DNA of 64,000 nucleotides, taken from positions 1 through 64,000 of the forward strand of contig NZ_BPFJ01000002.1 in the NCBI RefSeq assembly GCF_019972115.1, in the 5' to 3' direction. Below, in pieces: positions 270 to 61,713 of the stretch (its first letter is position 1; each line of letters begins with the position of its first letter). The DNA is from Sulfurovum sp. TSL6 (GTDB lineage Bacteria > Campylobacterota > Campylobacteria > Campylobacterales > Sulfurovaceae). The notes beneath the pieces were generated by a model. It was not told where the DNA came from. It made no database searches and saw only the letters and a list, made by a program, of their open reading frames with translations. The translations under genes were made by a program, and so were the position numbers.

Positions 270-305
270 TGTACTACTCCAAACATTTTATTAAAAAAAT
301 TATTT

Positions 306-395
306 CTGAGTAGCTTGGCAATCTATATGAGACCCATGGCTTTCTGTCCTGCCTTTTCAGACAGTTTAGCTTTTTGCAGAGTGCTTAGTCCCGAA
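306..395 (-). promoter_or_regulatory. c-di-GMP-I (GEMM-I) riboswitch
   Basis: Read on the minus strand, the leader holds AAAC, then a six-base-pair stem CTGTCT/AGGCAG closed by a GAAA tetraloop, then GGACAGAAAGCC, then ATGGGTCT, a short second helix, and a closing AAGCTA segment. The family has AAAC, a GNRA-capped P1b stem, GGACGCAAAGCC as tetraloop receptor and ligand pocket, and a CGGGTCT-like P2/P3 entry, in this order. The outer helix is short (AGCT/AGCT), as expected in A/T-rich DNA. It lies between a -10 box at 403-408 and the start codon at 269. The switch polarity (on or off) cannot be read; no clear terminator stem is seen after it. Confidence 0.8.
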
Positions 396-3302: not shown

Positions 3303-4172
3303 TTATTTTCCTTTTGCCATTTCTAGCATATATTGACCATATTCTGTTTTTTTAAGTGGCTGGGCCAATGCAATGAGTTCTTCACTGCTGATCCACCCTT
3401 TATAATAGGCAACTTCTTCAATACAAGCAACTTTATAGCCCTGTCGTTGTTCTATATTCTGAATATACAAGCTTGCTTGAGCAAGACTTTCATGCGTGCC
3501 TGTATCAAGCCAAGCATAACCCCTTCCTAACAGTTCTACCCGTAAATTATTTCGTTTCAGATACTCCTGATTTATGGATGTGATCTCAATCTCTCCCCGT
3601 TCTGATGGCTGGACATTTTTTGCTATCTCCACAACATCGTTATCATAAAAATAAAGGCCGGTCACTGCATAATTACTCTTCGGATTAATCGGCTTTTCTT
3701 CAATCGATATCACTTTATCATTCTCATCAAATTCGACTATACCAAAACGTTCCGGGTCTTTAACATAATAACCAAATATTGTAGCACCATCCGTTTGTTT
3801 TGCCGCTTCTTCCAACCTTGGTGTCAACCCGGGACCATAAAAAATATTGTCACCAAGAATCAAGCAAACACTGTCATCACCAATAAAAGTCTCACCAAGT
3901 ATAAAGGCATCAGCCAACCCCAGAGGAGACTCCTGAACAATATACTCAAACTTCATACCTAGATGTGATCCATCACCTAAAAGCTCCATAAATCGACCAA
4001 GATCCTGGGAAGTTGAAATAATCAATACTTCATGTATTCCTGCAAGCATCAAAACAGATAGTGGATAGTAGATCATTGGTTTATCATATACGGGAAGCAG
4101 TTGTTTTGATATCACTTTTGTAATCGGATAAAGCCTTGTACCGCTTCCCCCTGCTAATATAATCCCTTTCAT
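3303..4172 (-). CDS. rfbA: Glucose-1-phosphate thymidylyltransferase RmlA
   Basis: Makes dTDP-glucose from glucose 1-phosphate and dTTP, the entry step of the rml pathway. The nucleotide-binding signature GGSGTRL is at residues 8-14 and [12 protein letters not shown] follows at 22-33, with the conserved lysine. Length (289) is that of the short RmlA form. The start ATG overlaps the stop of wecC by four bases, so translation is probably coupled. Confidence 0.97.
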
Positions 4173-5392
4173 TTTATGTCCTTTTTTTGATTATATTTCG
4201 TAACACCACAAAAATCAAATACTTCTTTTCCAAAGATACGTATACCCTTGAATTCATCATGTGCTACTAAAAATACGATGATATCTGCATCATTAATAGC
4301 CTCTTCATCTTGAACAAGCTCAAATTCATCTGAAGTTTTTAGATTCGGTTCTACAGGGAGAACTTCAAGTCCTTCAGCAATTAAACGTCTTGTGATATAA
4401 AGTGCAGGAGACTCTCTAAGGTCATCAATATTTGGTTTAAACGCCAGTCCCATACATGCAACCTTGGCTTTTTTACCATTATCTTTCTCAATTATCAGTG
4501 CTACATTTTTTATCTTTTCTATAGCCCATTCTGTTTTGTAAGTATTAACCTCTCTGGCTGTCCTGATAATCTTTGCATCTTCTCCACCTGCATGCACAAT
4601 GAACCAGGGATCAACCGCAATACAATGTCCCCCTACTCCTGCACCTGGTTGTAAAATGTTTACACGTGGATGACGGTTTGCAAGGGAAATCAGTTCCCAA
4701 ACATTAATACCAAATTTATCTGATAAAATAGAGAGTTCATTGGCAAATGCTATGTTCACATCTCGATAACTGTTCTCAGTCAGTTTAGCCATTTCAGCTG
4801 TTTTTGCATCTGTCTTCAGTATTTGCCCGCTCACAAAGGTTTTATAAAAGGCTGCTGTCTCATCAGTTGCTTCTTCATTAAGACCTCCTACTATACGGTC
4901 ATTCTCTACCAATTCACGCATAATTTGTCCAGGTAAAACACGCTCGGGACAATGGGCTATATGCACCTTACTTATGTCTACTCCCTGTTCTTGCAATACT
5001 TCTGCCACTTTATCTGTAGTGCCTACAGGAGAAGTAGACTCTAAGATAATAATATTTCCATCTTTAACATAGGGAGCAATAGACTCAGTTGCAGTAAGAA
5101 CATAATCTATATTTGGTACATAACCGTCATGAAATGGTGTAGGAACTGCAATGATGAATACATCTGATTCTTGTGGTTTTATATCTGCGATCAGGTTACC
5201 TGAATTTACAGCCGAACGGACAAAGGTATCTAGATCCGGCTCTACAATATGGATCTTACCTTGATTAATGGTATCCACGGTACTTTGTACTACATCAACA
5301 CCATGTACTTGATATTTACGGTTGGCCAAGAGTGCTGCTGTCGGAAGACCTATATATCCTAATCCCATGACACATACTGTTTTAGTTTGCAT
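4169..5392 (-). CDS. wecC: UDP-N-acetyl-D-mannosamine dehydrogenase, first copy
   Basis: Oxidises UDP-ManNAc twice to UDP-ManNAcA using NAD+. The UDP-glucose/GDP-mannose dehydrogenase layout is complete: NAD motif GLGYIG at 10-15, central helical domain, and [13 protein letters not shown] with the catalytic Cys257. Length 407. A second copy lies at 59380-60576; by eye the two are about four-fifths identical, this copy having a longer, charged C-terminus. It overlaps the wecB-like gene before it by 11 bases and rmlA after it by 4. Confidence 0.95.
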
Positions 5393-6167
5393 ATTTTTCC
5401 TTTATCAGATTTAAAATTTTTTGGCATGCTTTTCCATCTCCATATGGATTATCGATTTGGCTCATACTCTCATAAATTGATCTATCTTTCAGTAATTTAT
5501 TTCCTTCGTTTACTATCGTTATGGGGTTTGTTCCCACCAGTTTTACTGTACCAGCTTCAAGCGCTTCCGGTCTTTCAGTTGTATTACGCATTACCAATAT
5601 ATGATTCTCAATCTTGTCTAATACCCAAAACAATGCATCAATGACCGTATTTCCTGTTACATAAATATCATCTTTATCTATATTCCCTTTTAAGAGATTA
5701 TCTTTACTAGTTTCTGTAGGTGCAAAATGAAATTTGGTAATCTGTGATGTGAGTTTACGGTTTGCTTCTTCTGGCCAAGTACTGTAGATATTACCGGTAC
5801 GAAGACCTGCTTCCACATGAGCAACTGGTATCTTTTGATAAAATGCGCTCATGGCTGAAGCAATAGTTGTTGTAGTATCGCCATGTACAAAAAGTACATC
5901 AGGTTGATACTCCATAAGCACTTCTTTCATTCCAAGTAGAATATGACTTGTTATATCATATAGATATTGTCCCGCTTTCATAATATTAAGATCAAAATCG
6001 GGAACAATGTCAAAAATATCTAATACTTGATCGAGCATTTCTCTATGTTGTGCAGTCACACAAACTTTTGTGTCTATATCTTGTGATTGTTTTTTAAATG
6101 CCAGTACAAGGGGTGCCATTTTAATGGCTTCAGGTCTTGTACTAAATACGAGTAATACTTTTTTCAT
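5382..6167 (-). pseudogene. wecB: UDP-GlcNAc 2-epimerase (WecB) copy with an internal in-frame deletion
   Basis: Aligned with the intact copy at 60577-61713, residues 1-187 correspond to 1-187, and residue 191 onward corresponds to 311 onward, so exactly 120 codons are missing without a frameshift. The lost part holds VTGHRREN (active-site His), VHLNP and DSGGVQEE (UDP binding) of the intact protein. The remaining 261 residues therefore lack most of the C-terminal Rossmann domain, and epimerase activity is very unlikely. The reading frame, start and overlap with wecC are intact, so it may persist because it carries the translation start of the operon. A sequencing or assembly error is possible but would have to remove exactly 360 bases. 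Confidence 0.8.
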
Positions 6168-8360: not shown

Positions 8361-8490
8361 GTTACGGCGAACGCCCCGCTTGTACCCCACTTACGCTTTA
8401 GCGACGGAGGGTATCGGCATTTAGTGCCAGAAAAGCGAAGCGTTTCGAGAGCCGTAACGCTTTTTTGCCTACTTTTTATAAAAAAAGTAG
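8361..8490 (+). repeat. Structured dispersed repeat, copy A
   Basis: The element opens with GTTACGGC (8361-8368) and closes with its exact complement GCCGTAAC (8451-8458). Inside are GAACGCC, TACCCCACTTACGC, TTTAGCGACGGAGGGTA (a hairpin with CGC/GCG and TACCC/GGGTA arms), GGCATTTAGTGCC (a small hairpin) and TTTCGAGA. It is followed by an A/T-rich palindrome at 8469-8490 (arms CTACTTTTT/AAAAAGTAG). Copies B (33725) and C (35778, reverse) share the same order, and the terminal stem varies by compensating changes. It fills the purL-purH spacer. A reading frame crosses the element but is not conserved in length. Confidence 0.85.
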
Positions 8491-24910: not shown

Positions 24911-26547
24911 CTCTCTACCCTTTTTACCTTATTTTCAATCATTTCTACAAACTGTGAAGCACTTTCATCATACATATCAAATATTTTGCTCACACCTGCC
25001 AAAAGGAATTTTCTATTGTCTTCTTTCGTATCAGAGAGTGCCACGATTTCATCTTTAAATCCATTGGCACGCAGGGTAATGCTGTAGTAGACATTTAAAG
25101 CTTCATCATTCATCGCACACACTGCAATCCCATCATTGATATCCGGAGTTTCACTATTGTTTTTATCAATAAGGATGACATTGGTAAAACCATCATCTTT
25201 GGCTGCTTCATAACTCTCATTTCCGATCTCATAGATCGTCACTTCTATCCCTTCTTCTTTGAGCATTTTACAGATATGGCTACTCTTATGGGTATACCCA
25301 AAAAAGGAAATATTTTTCTTCTCTTCTTCACTGTGTTTTTTCAAATAATGGAAAGCTCTTGTATCGATCACATCATAAGGCTCGACCAGACCATCTACTT
25401 TTGTCGCTTCATACTGTGGACGTAACTCAACTTGATTCATACGTGCATACACGATAGACTGTGACTCTACACTTTTTGCATTGAGTATAAAGTAGATATT
25501 ATTGATATCTGAACTGCTTAACGTAAGCATCGCTACGATATTTCCTCTTTCATACAGTGTTTTAACCATCTTTGCAGATGAACCATCTGCATGTATCACT
25601 TGATAACCATCTTGTTGTGCTTTAGTCGCTTTCTTTTCATCATTCTCTATGATAACGGGTTCATACATTTTATGTATTTTTAGTTTTTTCGCGATCGTTG
25701 TTCCCAAATGTCCATATCCATCTATGATAACTACATTTTGTATTTTGTGTACATGGTTGATACTGTCCTGGTTACGCAGTTCATCAAATCTCTCAGAAAA
25801 GGCAGAGACCATCACAGATGTTACAAATGAGATCATGGCGATACCAAAAATGATACCAAACATAGATACCACTTTGCCTAATTCAGTCACAGGAGCAATA
25901 TCACCGTAACCTACTGTAGAGATGGTCACCAATGCCCAATAAATAGCATCTAAATAAGAATCTAATGACGTATTAATACCAAATTCAAGCAGATAAAATA
26001 TAGAACCAAAGGTAAAAGTGACACCCAAAAGCATATAGCCTAAAAAAACAAATTCAAAACGTTTTTTAAGTAATGCATTAAAAAGGCTCGATGCCCCATG
26101 CATATAGTGATACAGTTTTAACAGCCGCAAAATTCTAAATTTCGGGAAAATAGCTATAAGATCGATAAGTGCGGGCAGGGACATCATATAGCGTAATTTA
26201 GATTTGAAAACTGCCCAGTATCGTTCAGAACTACTGGAGTCAGAAGCTGAAGAGACGAGATATTTATGGATATCATGGCTGATCCACAATCTAAGCAGAT
26301 ACTCCGCTGCAAAGATACTGGTCACAAAATAGAGATCGAATTCCACAAGCCACTCAGGGATTTTATCTGTTTTACTCAAAATAAGTATAGAAATAGAAAG
26401 CACAATGAGCATGATCATAAATGCATCAAAGTACTTTTTATAGGGGTAGGTTACATCTTCAAGCAGTGAACGGAAAAATGATTTTATCTTTTGATAGCGT
26501 ACAGAACCGTCTATCTTGTGCGAGAGTTTCACTATGAAATCATGCAT
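24907..26547 (-). CDS. Voltage-gated-type potassium channel with RCK (TrkA-N) domains
   Basis: 546 residues. About six membrane segments between 35 and 250, an S4-like basic stretch (RILRLLKLYHYM, only two to four positive residues), and the selectivity filter TVGYGD at 211-216. A cytoplasmic RCK domain follows (IIDGYGHLGTTIAKKL near 273-288), then a second, weaker Rossmann-like unit (FFGYTHKSSHICKML near 413-427). This is the architecture of Kch/MthK-like channels with tandem RCK. Gating ligand unknown. Co-transcribed with gatB before and gpsA after it. Confidence 0.9.
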   Translation of the reverse strand: MHDFIVKLSHKIDGSVRYQKIKSFFRSLLEDVTYPYKKYFDAFMIMLIVLSISILILSKTDKIPEWLVEFDLYFVTSIFAAEYLLRLWISHDIHKYLVSSASDSSSSERYWAVFKSKLRYMMSLPALIDLIAIFPKFRILRLLKLYHYMHGASSLFNALLKKRFEFVFLGYMLLGVTFTFGSIFYLLEFGINTSLDSYLDAIYWALVTISTVGYGDIAPVTELGKVVSMFGIIFGIAMISFVTSVMVSAFSERFDELRNQDSINHVHKIQNVVIIDGYGHLGTTIAKKLKIHKMYEPVIIENDEKKATKAQQDGYQVIHADGSSAKMVKTLYERGNIVAMLTLSSSDINNIYFILNAKSVESQSIVYARMNQVELRPQYEATKVDGLVEPYDVIDTRAFHYLKKHSEEEKKNISFFGYTHKSSHICKMLKEEGIEVTIYEIGNESYEAAKDDGFTNVILIDKNNSETPDINDGIAVCAMNDEALNVYYSITLRANGFKDEIVALSDTKEDNRKFLLAGVSKIFDMYDESASQFVEMIENKVKRVER

Positions 26548-33686: not shown

Positions 33687-33724
33687 ACCAAAACCCCTTA
33701 TTAAATCACACATCAGTGTGCTTT

Positions 33725-33823
33725 GTCGTGGCGAACGCCCTTGAAAGCAAAGCGATTCGAGAGCCACGACGACTTTTGTTTTTACCCCAAGGGCATTTCC
33801 GATGGGCACTTTTCTAGAAAAGT
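33725..33823 (+). repeat. Structured dispersed repeat, copy B (short form)
   Basis: GTCGTGGC (33725-33732) pairs perfectly with GCCACGAC (33763-33770); inside are GAACGCC and AAGCGATTCGAGA as in copies A and C, but the middle hairpins are absent (core 46 bases against 98 and 93). A module TACCCCAAGGGCATTTCC with GGGC follows, then the palindrome ACTTTTCTAGAAAAGT (33808-33823). It lies between dapD and the S4 protein gene. Confidence 0.85.
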
Positions 33824-33892
33824 AAAGAGAGAAACAAACTCACAATTCAAATAAAAGGAAATGTATCAAAACAAAATCCTAATATTTATAAT

Positions 33893-35620: not shown

Positions 35621-35778
35621 CTACCCCAAGGGCACTTCCTCACTTCGTTCAGGGCGTTTTTTTAGAAAAAACGAAACAAAAAATCGTCACAGTTCTCGAA
35701 TCGCTAGATTTTCTGGCACTAAATGACGATACCCCTGTCGCTAAAGCGTAAGTGGGGTGCAAGGTCGTTCACCATGAC
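35621..35778 (-). repeat. Structured dispersed repeat, copy C
   Basis: On the minus strand GTCATGGT (35778-35771) pairs with ACTGTGAC (35693-35686) using two G-U wobbles that would be mismatches on the other strand. Inside are GAACGAC, CACCCCACTTACGC/TTTAGCGACAGGGGTA, TCATTTAGTGCC and GCGATTCGAGA as in copy A. Beyond the core lie an A/T-rich palindrome (35655-35673) and, on the plus strand, TACCCCAAGGGCACTTCC with GGGC, the module seen in copy B but in the opposite orientation relative to the core. It accounts for half of the 309-base gene-free stretch 35557-35865; I see nothing else there except GTACTTTGTAC (35786-35796). Confidence 0.85.
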
Positions 35779-36076: not shown

Positions 36077-37909
36077 ATGACATTCAAGTCACTCAGCCTT
36101 ATCACGGCTACACTACTACTGACAACACACACGCACGCAGACGAAACACTCGAACCTATCACGATAGTCTCAGCCACTAAAACAACACAATCCATTCAAA
36201 ACACCACTTCAAATGTCACAGTGATTACAGCCGAAGAGATAGAAGAAAATGGATATCAAACTGTTGCACAAGCCATCAACACTGTAGCTGGAATCTCGGT
36301 TACTAACTCTGGTGGCCTTGGACAGCAGAGTTCATTTTTCGTAAGAGGTGCGGACTCAGGTAAAGTCCTCGTACTCTTAGACGGCATGCGTCTCAACGAC
36401 CCAAGTACTACAAATGGTACAGCCCTTCTTGATAGTCTTACAACAAGTAACATAGACCAAATCGAGATCATCAAAGGTGGTGCAAGCAGTATCTGGGGCT
36501 CCAATGCTTCTGCAGGTGTCATCAACATCATTACCAAAGAAGCCAAAGATGGTATCCATGGTTCACTCGCATTAAACTACGGTTCATACAACACTAGAGG
36601 TACTGATGCCGATCTTTCGTACAGTGATAAAAAGATCACAGCACAAGTTCTTGCTTCCTATCTCAAAACGGATGGTTTTTCTGCATTGGCTCCAAGATCA
36701 GCAGAAGAAGATGGCTATGAAAATAAAAACTATAATATAAAATTCGGATATGCTTTTGATGCAAATAACAAACTAAACCTTAGCTATAACCGCATTAAAA
36801 CAGATACTGAGTATGATGACAGCTTCTCTGTCTCTCAAGCAGATGATGATTACAGTAACAGTACATCAGATCAAACTAACTATGCCTTGAACTATCACTT
36901 CAACCTGGACAACTATAGTGCTATTTTCAATGCAAGTAAAGGTGAATACAATAGGGTCTATTACACCTATTACTACATGGACAACCAAAATGTCTATAAA
37001 GCAAATCTCAAAGAGTACTCCCTCATCAATGCATACCAATACGAAAAAGGGAAAATGATTTTAGGATTGGAGTATAAAGATATAGATGGATTCAGCCAAC
37101 TCAACACTTATGCAGAAAATAAAGCAAGTTATATTAACAAAGCAATATTTGTTTCTAACATATACGACATCAATGAAAACACTCTTTTGGAAACAAATCT
37201 AAGATACGATAACTATGATGAATTTGATGACAAGACTACTTATAAAATTGGATTCAAACATAATCATGACTTTTATGAAGGCTTCACAACTTCTGCAAAC
37301 TACTATACTTCGTATGATTCTCCAAGTTCATACCAACTTGCAAATCAATCACCTACCGTTGATATTTTGAAACCTGCTTATACAAAAGGATATGATATTT
37401 CTGCTAGTTATAAAGATCTTATCTCTATTAGCTATTTTAATATTGAAGTAGAAGATGGAATTGTGTATATAGATGGTACATGGCCAGCAGAGTATAAGAA
37501 CACCAATGGCATAGAAAAGTTCTCTGGACTTGAAATAACAAGTTCATATGTATTTGATCCATACAATATTACATTCTCTGCAAACTATACCCATCTCTTT
37601 GATTATGATGCAGAAGATGGAACAGACCATATCAGACGTGCAAAAGATACATTGAATGCTTCTTTAGAGTACTACACTATAAACGATACACATTTTGGTA
37701 TCAATGCACAGTATATAGGTGACAGAGAAGAGTTTGGACAAAGTACTGGTAACTACACCGTATGGAACGCAAACTTCAGTACAGAAATTATCAATGATGT
37801 TGACCTAAGTCTAAATGCAAGAAACATCTTTGATAAAGACTACCAGTCAAGCTACGGTTACGCTACAGAAGGAAGATCACTCTATGCAAAGATCAAGTAT
37901 AGCTTTTAG
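36077..37909 (+). CDS. TonB-dependent outer-membrane receptor, BtuB-like
   Basis: 610 residues. Signal peptide (cut near HTHA-DE, about 22), TonB box ITIVSATK near 28-35, plug domain (TVAQAINTVAGISVTNSGG; FVRGADSGKVLVLLDGMRLND; IEIIKGGASSIWGSNASAGVINIITK), and a 22-strand barrel ending in KIKYSF with terminal Phe. The plug pattern is closest to BtuB-like cobalamin receptors and colicin I-like receptors; the ligand cannot be told from sequence. No tonB/exbBD or ABC transporter gene lies beside it. Many Tyr/Asn/Asp in the barrel fit a marine organism. Confidence 0.9.
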   Translation: MTFKSLSLITATLLLTTHTHADETLEPITIVSATKTTQSIQNTTSNVTVITAEEIEENGYQTVAQAINTVAGISVTNSGGLGQQSSFFVRGADSGKVLVLLDGMRLNDPSTTNGTALLDSLTTSNIDQIEIIKGGASSIWGSNASAGVINIITKEAKDGIHGSLALNYGSYNTRGTDADLSYSDKKITAQVLASYLKTDGFSALAPRSAEEDGYENKNYNIKFGYAFDANNKLNLSYNRIKTDTEYDDSFSVSQADDDYSNSTSDQTNYALNYHFNLDNYSAIFNASKGEYNRVYYTYYYMDNQNVYKANLKEYSLINAYQYEKGKMILGLEYKDIDGFSQLNTYAENKASYINKAIFVSNIYDINENTLLETNLRYDNYDEFDDKTTYKIGFKHNHDFYEGFTTSANYYTSYDSPSSYQLANQSPTVDILKPAYTKGYDISASYKDLISISYFNIEVEDGIVYIDGTWPAEYKNTNGIEKFSGLEITSSYVFDPYNITFSANYTHLFDYDAEDGTDHIRRAKDTLNASLEYYTINDTHFGINAQYIGDREEFGQSTGNYTVWNANFSTEIINDVDLSLNARNIFDKDYQSSYGYATEGRSLYAKIKYSF

Positions 37910-37934: not shown

Positions 37935-38044
37935 GTGCTAAGTACTACGTATTACGTGTTACGAAAGAGCAAAGGCTTACAAGTCAAAAGACTATATAAA
38001 AATCAATGCCCTACTTATTTTTCGTAACACATAGCACTTAGCAC
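37935..38044. repeat. Long interrupted inverted repeat, second repeat family
   Basis: Left arm 37935-37966 (GTGCTAAGT, ACTACGTATTACG, TGTTACGAAA) and right arm 38020-38044 (TTTCGTAACAC, ATAGC, ACTTAGCAC). The ends GTGCTAAGT/ACTTAGCAC and the inner GTGTTACGAAA/TTTCGTAACAC are exact complements; the left arm has seven extra bases. The two arms are 53 bases apart. A single unit is found at 31219-31244. Confidence 0.7.
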
Positions 38045-38063
38045 GTAACACTAACAAATAGGA

Positions 38064-38074: not shown

Positions 38075-38638
38075 ATGTTAAAAATTATCCCATCCTGGTT
38101 CATCAGATACAAGTTCTTCAATTCCCTCTTTTTGGGATTGAGTGTGGGTGCCATATTTACACTTTATGCACCGCTTGAACCCTCTATCTATTCTCTGGGC
38201 GGTGTATTGTTGGCCATGGGTATGCTGATCGTCGCACGGTTTTATCATACCATACTCAATGCAGATTGGTTTTTTAGGATCTCACTCTTTGTAGAGGTTG
38301 TTTTACTCTTAACCATGCTCTACTTCCTCTATGCATCTTACAACTATCAGACTGCCCTGCTGCTTTACATCGGGTATCAGGTTACTTTTGTCTTCGGAAA
38401 CTACCTTATAAGAGCTGAAACACTTTTACTTAAAACAGATATCCTCTTAACCAAACTCGATACGGTCAAACAGATAGGCTACCTTTTAGGCATGGGGCTC
38501 GCATATCTTTTTTACAAGATCCTTACGCAGTACGGCATAGAAGATAACCAAACACAGGTCTATGACCTGCATTTTTTACTGATAGCTGTTGAGTTGGTGG
38601 TGATTGTTTTGATTATAAAAAGTTTTAAAAGAGTCTAA
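38075..38638 (+). CDS. Inner-membrane protein of unknown function
   Basis: 187 residues with five to six hydrophobic segments (about 14-32, 38-56, 66-88, 94-112, 130-148, 162-182) and few charged residues apart from the loop RAETLLLKTDILLTKLDTVKQ. No motif of a known transporter. It is a single-gene unit, convergent with the wecA-like gene. Confidence 0.6.
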   Translation: MLKIIPSWFIRYKFFNSLFLGLSVGAIFTLYAPLEPSIYSLGGVLLAMGMLIVARFYHTILNADWFFRISLFVEVVLLLTMLYFLYASYNYQTALLLYIGYQVTFVFGNYLIRAETLLLKTDILLTKLDTVKQIGYLLGMGLAYLFYKILTQYGIEDNQTQVYDLHFLLIAVELVVIVLIIKSFKRV

Positions 38639-59379: not shown

Positions 59380-60576
59380 TTATACAGTAATCCCACAAAA
59401 ATCTATAGTTTCTTTACCAAATATCTTAAGGTCTTTAAACTCTTTATGTGCCACAAGAAAAACTATCACATCGGCTTTTTCTACCGCCTCATTGTAATTT
59501 ACTACATCAAAATCTTTATGCTCAGAGATATTTGGTTCAATTGCCAATACTTCAAGACCATCAGCTATAAGTCTTCTAGTAATATAAAGTGCTGGTGATT
59601 CTCTAAGATCATCAATATCTGGCTTAAAAGCCAACCCCATACAAGCGATTTTCGCTTTTCGTCCATTTTCATTTTCGAATGCTAAAGCAGCATTTTTGAT
59701 TTTCTCTATGGCCCATTCTGTTTTGTAAGTATTAACTTCTCTCGCTGTGCGGATTATCTTTGCATCTTCTCCACCAGCATGGACGATGAACCAAGGATCC
59801 ACGGCAATGCAATGTCCACCTACACCAGCACCCGGTTGCAGGATGTTGACTCTTGGGTGACGGTTAGCTAGCTTGATAAGCTCCCATACATCGATATCGA
59901 ATTTATCACAAAGGATGGAGAGTTCATTGGCAAAAGCGATATTCGTATCTCTAAAACTGTTTTCAGTTAGTTTTGCCATCTCTGCTGTTTTAGCATCGGT
60001 TGCCAGTACTTCGCCCTCTACAAAAGTTTGGTAGAAGGCTACTGTCACCTCAGTGGCTTCTGAAGTAGTTCCTCCTACGATACGGTCATTCTCTACCAAC
60101 TCACGCATAATATGTCCTGGAAGGACACGCTCAGGACAGTGTGCAACATGCACCTTCCTTGTGTCGATACCATGTGATGCCAGTACTTCTGCAACCTTGT
60201 CTGTTGTACCCACCGGTGATGTGGACTCTAGAATGACAATGTTACCTTCTTGTACATAAGGGGCTATAGATTTGGTTGCAGAGATAACATAGTCGATATT
60301 TGGCACGTACCCTTCATGAAACGGTGTTGGTACAGCGATGATGAAGACATCTGCTTGTGCCGGTTTAATATCAGCCTTGAGCTTACCGCTGTTAACTGCA
60401 GCTCTCACAAAGGTATCAAGCTCAGGTTCAACAATGTGGATCTCACCACGGTTAATGATATCTACAGTACTTTGTACGACATCAACACCACGTACTTCAT
60501 AACTCCTATTTGCTAACAGCGCTGCAGTTGGTAGTCCTATATATCCTAGTCCAACCACACATACTTTTTTATCCAT
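59380..60576 (-). CDS. wecC: UDP-N-acetyl-D-mannosamine dehydrogenase, second copy
   Basis: 398 residues; all motifs intact, including GLGYIG at 9-14 and the catalytic Cys256 in [13 protein letters not shown]. Its reading frame is visibly less A/T-rich than that of the genes downstream. Directly follows the intact wecB (next base), so this pair can make UDP-ManNAcA. The copy at 4169-5392 shares long identical blocks, for example [19 protein letters not shown]. Confidence 0.96.
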   Translation of the reverse strand: MDKKVCVVGLGYIGLPTAALLANRSYEVRGVDVVQSTVDIINRGEIHIVEPELDTFVRAAVNSGKLKADIKPAQADVFIIAVPTPFHEGYVPNIDYVISATKSIAPYVQEGNIVILESTSPVGTTDKVAEVLASHGIDTRKVHVAHCPERVLPGHIMRELVENDRIVGGTTSEATEVTVAFYQTFVEGEVLATDAKTAEMAKLTENSFRDTNIAFANELSILCDKFDIDVWELIKLANRHPRVNILQPGAGVGGHCIAVDPWFIVHAGGEDAKIIRTAREVNTYKTEWAIEKIKNAALAFENENGRKAKIACMGLAFKPDIDDLRESPALYITRRLIADGLEVLAIEPNISEHKDFDVVNYNEAVEKADVIVFLVAHKEFKDLKIFGKETIDFCGITV

Positions 60577-61713
60577 TTATCTTTCCTTCATAAATTCAAC
60601 TACCTGTGTACAAGCTGTACCATCTCCATAAGGATTACTTGCTTGGGACATATGGCTATACGCATCTTGATCATCGATCAGCTTCTGTGCTTCATTTCTG
60701 ATCAGTTCTATATCTGTACCTACCAGCATAACTGTACCTGCTGCCAAGGCTTCTGGGCGTTCTGTGGTCTCTCTCATGACAAGTACTGGTTTACCAAGAG
60801 ACGGTGCCTCTTCCTGTACACCACCGCTATCAGTAATGATAAAGTAAGACTTGTCCATCATATAGATAAACTGTTCATACTGCAATGGTTTTATGAGGTA
60901 GATGTTTGCTACATCTGAAAGAAGTTCCTTTACTGGTTGTTGCACATTAGGATTAAGATGCACCGGATAGACAATATCGATATCCGGATTAGAGACAGCG
61001 ATCTCTTTAAGTGCGGTACAGATATTGATAAAGCCCTGACCATGGTTTTCTCTTCTATGTCCTGTGACCAAAATGATCTTTTTTTCATCTGATAAATGAT
61101 AATCAAGCGTTTCTAAATGCTGAACGATTTCTATTTCAAGTTGCTTGTTAGATTTGATCTTCTCTAAGGCTAAGAACAGTGCATCAATGACCGTATTACC
61201 CGTTACGACAATACTTTGTGCATTAACATTTTCACGTAAAAGATTCTCTTTACTTGTTTGCGTTGGTGCAAAGTGATACGCTGTGATCTGCGAAGTAAGC
61301 TGACGATTTGCCTCTTCAGGCCAAGGAGAGTAGATGTCACCCGTTCTCAAACCTGCTTCGATGTGTGCCACAGAGATCTGTTGGTAAAATGCTGCCAAAG
61401 AAGCAGCAAATGTTGTAGATGTATCACCATGTACAAAAACCACATCAGGTTTGAACTCTGTAAGTACAGGCTTCATGCCAAGAAGAACATTTGAAGTCAC
61501 ATCATAAAGATCTTGTCCAGGCTTCATAATGTCAAGATCATACTCAGGGATGATATCAAACAACTCCAAAACCTGATCAAGCATTTCTCTATGTTGTGCC
61601 GTCACACATACTTTTGTATCAAAAGTATGTGGAAACTTTTGAAACTCTTTTACCAGTGGTGCCATTTTAATGGCTTCAGGACGGGTACCAAAAACGATGA
61701 GTATTTTTTGCAT
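60577..61713 (-). CDS. wecB: UDP-N-acetylglucosamine 2-epimerase (non-hydrolysing)
   Basis: Interconverts UDP-GlcNAc and UDP-ManNAc. 378 residues, two complete Rossmann domains: [12 protein letters not shown] (9-20), [31 protein letters not shown] (217-228), [15 protein letters not shown] (295-309), [11 protein letters not shown]. Full length, in contrast to the copy at 5382. Overlaps galU by one base. Confidence 0.97.

Follow-up and report, generated by a model that had tools for sequence, protein, structure and literature searches.

The window analysed here, a stretch of 64,000 nt from Sulfurovum sp. TSL6 (contig NZ_BPFJ01000002.1, positions 1 to 64,000, forward strand), carries three copies of a structured repeat: copies A and B on the plus strand (8361-8490 and 33725-33823) and copy C on the minus strand (35778-35621). 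The parts recognised in them are hairpins X, Y and Z, a conserved 3' end, W, and two inserted small repeats, modules I and II:

8361-8458 (+): copy A, hairpin Y, with arms at 8361-8368 (GTTACGGC) and 8451-8458 (GCCGTAAC); the conserved core is split by module I
8384-8431 (+): copy A, module I, an independent two-hairpin repeat of ~47 nt within the loop of Y
8461-8466 (+): copy A, T-run directly 3' of hairpin Y, terminator-like
8469-8490 (+): copy A, A/T hairpin Z, CTACTTTTTATAAAAAAAGTAG
33707-33720 (+): copy B, small 5' hairpin X, CACAC-ATCA-GTGTG
33725-33770 (+): copy B, hairpin Y without insert, with arms at 33725-33732 (GTCGTGGC) and 33763-33770 (GCCACGAC)
33774-33777 (+): copy B, T-run 3' of hairpin Y
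33784-33807 (+): copy B, module II, ACCCCAAGGGCATTTCCGATGGGC, as an insert within hairpin Z
33808-33826 (+): copy B, remaining A/T palindrome of hairpin Z
33826-33861 (+): copy B, conserved 3' end W, GAGAAACAA....CACAATTCAAATAAAAGGAAA
35785-35797 (-): copy C, hairpin X, CGTAC-AAA-GTACG
35686-35778 (-): copy C, hairpin Y, with arms at 35778-35771 (GTCATGGT) and 35693-35686 (ACTGTGAC); the loop contains module I
35712-35758 (-): copy C, module I, in the Y loop
35621-35656 (-): copy C, module II, in hairpin Z; relative to the element, its orientation is opposite to that of module II in copy B

A direct reading of the sequence confirms the positions given to the three copies by the initial annotation, as well as every stem pair quoted for them. 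Pairs 3, 4 and 8 are altered on both arms, pair 5 is C-G, T-A and T-G in copies A, B and C, respectively, and pair 6 is a G-T wobble in copy C. The copies have the core pattern GAACGMC..AGCGWTTCGAGA in common (0 expected in 100 shuffles). What had been described as a variable middle is not a variable sequence of the element itself, being module I, inserted in A and C and missing from B. Folded singly, copy A is strong (MFE z-score of -4.9), and copies B (-1.7) and C (-0.8) are not; single-sequence folding alone would thus have missed the family.

Elsewhere in the window, a c-di-GMP-I-GGC riboswitch aptamer (Rfam RF03167, 61.2 bits) is located at 305-379 (-) and probably precedes a gene that lies outside the window, before its first position. 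An imperfect inverted repeat with 32-nt arms (GTGCTAAGTACTACGTATTACGTG.. and ..CACTTAGCACGTAACAC) occupies 37935-38051, between the ORFs 36077-37909 and 38075-38638, and is probably a further repeat family. Two gene segments ~55 kb apart, 4169-6167 and 59380-61713, are 71-78% identical over 300-nt stretches, which suggests paralogous gene pairs.

BLAST and pattern searches of the TSL6 genome supplied further copies, and a covariance model was built from eight insert-free ones (copy B and seven from outside the window). The search with this model, which the initial annotation had called for, gives 12 copies in the genome, and those recovered in the window are exactly the three already annotated. 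Copies that were held out of the model are found with E-values of 3e-7 (A), 2e-10 (C) and 1e-6 (C1:356318-356418). In its distribution, the family is restricted to the genus: with stricter filters, the model detects it in 28 of the 37 Sulfurovum genomes sampled, at 1-25 copies each, and in no genome among 23 that represent other families of the order. The exact core occurs in at least 120 stretches among a collection of 84,980 species, and all of the matches listed are titled Sulfurovum or Epsilonproteobacteria, Campylobacterota or Campylobacterales MAGs. Viral contigs gave no exact core match, and carriage of the family by viruses was rejected on this ground. No Rfam family matches any window copy at the gathering threshold, and over the copy A region, there is none even at E <= 1; the claim of a repeat family lacking an Rfam counterpart is upheld. 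An earlier description was not found in the open-access literature, outside which most subscription papers lie.

The alignment of about 125 copies defines a unit of ~150 bp in the order X - Y - T-run - Z - W. X is a small hairpin. Roughly three copies in four have it as ATTAAT-CACAC-GAA-GTGTG-CCTT, the others as ATTAATAAATAAT or GGCGATAGCC..TATTAATAA. In the consensus of hairpin Y, outer 8-bp arms (GTCGTGGC / GCCACGAC) enclose GAACGCCCTTGAAAGCGAAGCGATTCGAGA; the loop, or core, is 30 nt long. The T-run and the inner core, with its purine-rich GAAC/GAGA, are nearly invariant. Z is an A/T palindrome (e.g., GCTTCGTTTTTTCTAAAAAAATGAAG) and W the conserved 3' end, GAGAAACAACGCC[AT]CAATTNAAATAAAAGGNAATT. 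Conservation stops at both ends of the element, on the 5' side about 26 nt before the stem, beside the neighbouring gene. By inspection, the consensus ends (ATTAATCAC.. and ..AGGNAATT) contain no long inverted match like the terminal inverted repeats of a MITE. Two roles for W were rejected: as a fourth hairpin, its pairing is 3.22, compared with 2.93 in shuffled downstream sequence, and as an inverted partner of the 5' arm of Y (TTGTGGCG/CGCCACAA), it does not covary, W being near-constant while the Y arms vary.

The covariation of the arms, first noticed in three copies, extends to 209 distinct ones. Their 8-bp outer stems consist of 1582 Watson-Crick, 63 GU, 12 AC and 15 mismatched cells, i.e., 98.4% are paired, in copies that are related and with overlapping orthologous pairs, so that the counts are not independent events. 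Stem pairs exchange freely with pairing kept, Watson-Crick types replacing each other at six of the eight pairs; the 209 copies do not show the arms mutating without regard to pairing, which would have refuted the initial annotation. In the eight-copy set, six of eight pairs are altered on both sides and all outer-stem cells pair, compared with only 19-48% of the cells of the whole structure in slid controls. Corrected mutual information, calculated from 174 distinct sequences, is highest for the helix columns 6-41, 4-43, 7-40 and 5-42; 13-34 ranks next, ahead of the helix pairs 3-44, 8-39 and 2-45. The inner pair 13-34 (G-C in 126, A-T in 45) is supported by this covariation, although the signal may be that of a single subfamily split. 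The inner helix of the MFE fold (9-34, 10-33, 11-32, 12-30 and onwards) is unsupported, as two of its pairs break in whole subfamilies (13-29 is AC in 45 copies, 14-28 is AG in 53).

A G-U pair on one strand reads as A-C on the other, and the wobbles of copy C had been taken to define the sense strand. This assignment holds for the family: on that strand, hairpin Y has 63 GU against 12 AC (p = 1.7e-9, nominal because the copies are related; the copy filter treats GU, not AC, as paired, and six candidates were removed thereby). Hairpin X of the same element, which serves as internal control, has no bias (4 GU, 6 AC). The sense strand is also the one with the T-run 3' of the hairpin. The preference is found in copies antisense to both neighbours (GU:AC of 19:3) as in sense copies (22:2). 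A hairpin of single-stranded DNA on the same strand would produce an equal GU bias.

Four or more T follow the hairpin in 168 of the 170 copies with gene context. The family has the trait of an intrinsic terminator, a stable hairpin and a U-tract on one strand, and judged by its sequence, hairpin Y with the T-run looks like one. A generic terminator scan found no match over the element, since the scan admits loops of at most 8 nt and that of Y measures 30 nt. The 170 copies with clear flanks avoid divergent regions: 73 are antisense to both codirectional genes, 47 are sense, 43 lie between convergent genes and 7 between divergent ones (nominal p = 2e-7 for convergent vs. divergent and 0.02 for antisense vs. 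sense, both indicative, with orthologous copies counted separately and ORFs called mechanically). This context agrees with a DNA repeat that is accepted at a distance from promoters, and somewhat less readily where a one-way stop would interrupt an operon; it disagrees with a structure maintained solely for the mRNA of a neighbouring gene. In the 73 antisense contexts, neither neighbouring gene runs along the hairpin strand, and pairing, T-run and GU bias are unchanged; for this reason, host mRNA or the termination of host genes cannot be the sole maintaining force. The covariation reported by the initial annotation stands, and its attribution to selection on RNA is not established, because pairing and strand bias are equal in copies antisense to both neighbours and because block changes of the arms can also be produced by DNA template switching (PMC8794818).

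Template switching between the arms of inverted repeats is a documented mechanism (PMC8794818), by which changes in one arm are copied to the other and a palindrome is kept perfect without any selection on RNA. That the compensatory changes arise mainly in this way, at the DNA level, is a serious possibility, although we stop short of calling it probable. In the eight closest orthologous pairs (flank identity of 86-90%), the arms differ at 27% of their sites, the 30-nt core at 6% and the flanks at about 11%; 15 of the arm changes are double and 5 single. Among all 88 orthologous pairs of occupied sites, with flank identities down to about 69%, 204 double and 42 single arm changes were counted. 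Template switching predicts changes in blocks with perfect complementarity, and between the TSL6 copy at C2:147167 and its orthologue in Sulfurovum sp. AR, five adjacent pairs differ along with a single change in the core. Moreover, pairing is unaffected by the transcription context, and copy A has gained a CGC beside its insert that is complementary to the GCG opposite. The mechanism predicts no excess of GU over AC, however, in contrast with the bias of Y and its absence from X, and it leaves the near-invariance of the T-run and the inner core unexplained. Some orthologous sites are occupied by a different subtype, from which it follows that replacement by other copies also occurs.

We infer mobility from presence and absence alone, and sites are polymorphic. 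The spacer between carA and ddl (named from their proteins) contains the element in 4 of 29 readable genomes; in several others, it is just 8-11 nt long, and others hold different palindromes. The flanks of these empty sites are too diverged to define a target-site duplication. Here, the element precedes ddl and has the sense orientation, which, together with spacers of 8-11 nt elsewhere, argues that it is not a complete terminator at this site or that ddl has its own promoter. Across species, the small palindromes or repeats in this spacer (L164-L193) are of at least four unrelated types, namely the Sulfurovum hairpin element, GTAGGGTGG..CCACCCTAC, GGTCGGTTTACCGACC and a tandem AGCGTTCAG, which makes the spacer a shared landing site.

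Small palindromes are inserted at the loops of the element. Module I (CACCCCACTTACGCTTTAGCGACAGGGGTATCGGCATTTAGTGCCAGA, about 47 nt with its two hairpins) is a repeat in its own right, present in 16 of 61 genomes of the genus, where it stands alone or is inserted in the loop of Y or in the hairpin of a different repeat family (..GGGAGCATACGATCAAGTATG..CTCCC). A third small repeat, module II, is carried by B and C in the A/T-rich hairpin Z, which in other copies holds a third type of insert (L059, L171). In Sulfurovum sp. AR, locus A is nearly identical and without module I, locus B is without module II and locus C is without either. The hairpin of a second, larger repeat family (..GAGGGAGCATACGATCAAGTATGTGACCGAACAAACTCCCTC..) also hosts module I, and the insertion point varies slightly there, with two or more positions in use (L228, L229, L231-L235, L238). 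Nesting over three levels was observed, with module II in the loop of module I, itself within hairpin Y (L236, G074:C50 near 25613-25655). The hosts are thus Y and the hairpin of the second family for module I, and Z and module I for module II. Only tentatively, and with some doubt, can it be suggested that unrelated tiny palindromes share the hairpin apex as their target, being spread by a hairpin- or ssDNA-directed activity of non-Y1 type while template switching keeps the arms complementary.

Insertion at hairpin loops is also what would be seen if the repeat were a single-stranded DNA element, with a strand-specific enzyme (IS200/IS605-like or otherwise HUH-like) recognising Y and the loops serving as ssDNA targets for the modules. 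The one-strand bias regardless of gene orientation agrees with this, as does the arrangement of close copy pairs, which are mostly head-to-head (8 vs. 2), as in REP doublets. We nevertheless regard this explanation as unlikely. The search for a mobiliser, which covered the Y1_Tnp family, found none: Y1_Tnp has no match in TSL6 or in genomes G019, G026, G032, G003 and G028, the copy-richest ones (11-25 copies each), and none of 30 Y1_Tnp loci examined holds hairpin Y. Mobilisation by RAYT/Y1 is unsupported for the same reasons. An unpaired GTAG at the end of the palindrome, the trait of GTAG REPs, is absent as well; in the copies read, G-N-N-TTTT follows Y, and GTAG, where occasionally present, sits within hairpin Z. 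Another Sulfurovum genome, G062, has 31 Y1 transposase matches, several of which score equally; this points to IS200/IS605 elements having been active recently.

An RNA family proper, either a trans-acting small RNA or a cis-regulatory, riboswitch-like RNA, whose transcript would end in X, Y and the U-run, is improbable. Two hairpins followed by a U-run, a near-invariant purine-rich core, the covarying inner pair 13-34 and the strand bias would suit such a molecule. On the contrary, no conserved promoter lies upstream, conservation ending about 26 nt 5' of the stem, each genome can carry multiple copies beside unrelated genes in both orientations, and Rfam contains no match. Finally, a chance or misaligned grouping of three unrelated palindromes, conceivable from a window with just three copies, can practically be dismissed in view of 209 distinct copies, the lead of the helix pairs in mutual information and the failure of the slid controls.

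ERIC and NEMIS are modular intergenic palindromes, mostly 70-200 bp long and structured when transcribed. BOX elements are likewise modular, intergenic, mostly 70-200 bp and structured when transcribed (PMC3049150). BOX and ERIC/NEMIS differ in sequence and module order from the Sulfurovum family, which has yielded neither terminal inverted repeats nor target duplications. SPRITE (PMC3049150) resembles it as a low-copy interspersed repeat of a narrow species group, with a hairpin and a U-tract and with no known mobiliser; it is enriched near the 3' ends of genes, as the Sulfurovum repeats may also be. Compared by description, the AT-rich unit of SPRITE contains an 18-bp duplex, whereas the Sulfurovum family has an 8-bp stem around a conserved 30-nt core, to which it adds hairpin modules, a fast and compensated turnover of the arms and nested inserts. 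REP/REPIN sequences with RAYT (PMC3733652, PMC3116915) are also palindromic and extragenic, form head-to-head doublets and undergo frequent compensatory stem changes, and REPs, too, can serve as insertion targets (PMC1525189). In comparison, the Sulfurovum family is without the GTAG tag, has a larger unit, a low copy number and the 30-nt core, and its abundance does not track Y1 transposases. CGTC-tagged REPs have been reported from Sulfurovum sp. NBC37-1 (PMC3733652); they share with our family the genus, an 8-bp stem and the lack of a dedicated transposase, and the reverse strand of many of our copies starts with CGTC. In those REPs, however, an unpaired tag accompanies a stem that begins with AT, and a loop of 4-5 nt and a CCA-like tail complete the unit (PMC3733652), whereas here, GTC is paired within the stem and the loop has 30 nt, which places the family outside that class. 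A new family of interspersed, modular, terminator-like palindromic repeats is well supported, and pneumococcal SPRITE/BOX are closest to it in kind. The novelty claimed at the outset applies to the family and not to the structure, the general kind of which is already known.

The explanation that we favour, and consider probable, is that of Sulfurovum-specific, non-autonomous, modular palindromic repeats of ~150 bp that fill intergenic spaces. Hairpin Y and the U-run would act as a one-way intrinsic terminator or form a transcript 3' end on the sense strand, and the arms would stay complementary since the hairpin, not its sequence, matters. Template switching from arm to arm may help to keep them so, and the repeats would spread through a mobilising activity other than a resident Y1 (REP) transposase or through recombination between copies.

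If hairpin Y is a terminator, the family is a movable one-way stop signal. The small repeats nested in its loops point to a mobilising activity, for which the Y1_Tnp search gave no candidate. No evidence of a functional RNA is normally rated higher than base-pair covariation, and with hundreds of copies, many of them at orthologous sites, the family is a natural test of this rule. Its arms change in blocks and remain complementary with or without transcription from a flanking gene, yet have a clear wobble bias on one strand. The family can help to tell selection on RNA from DNA template switching.
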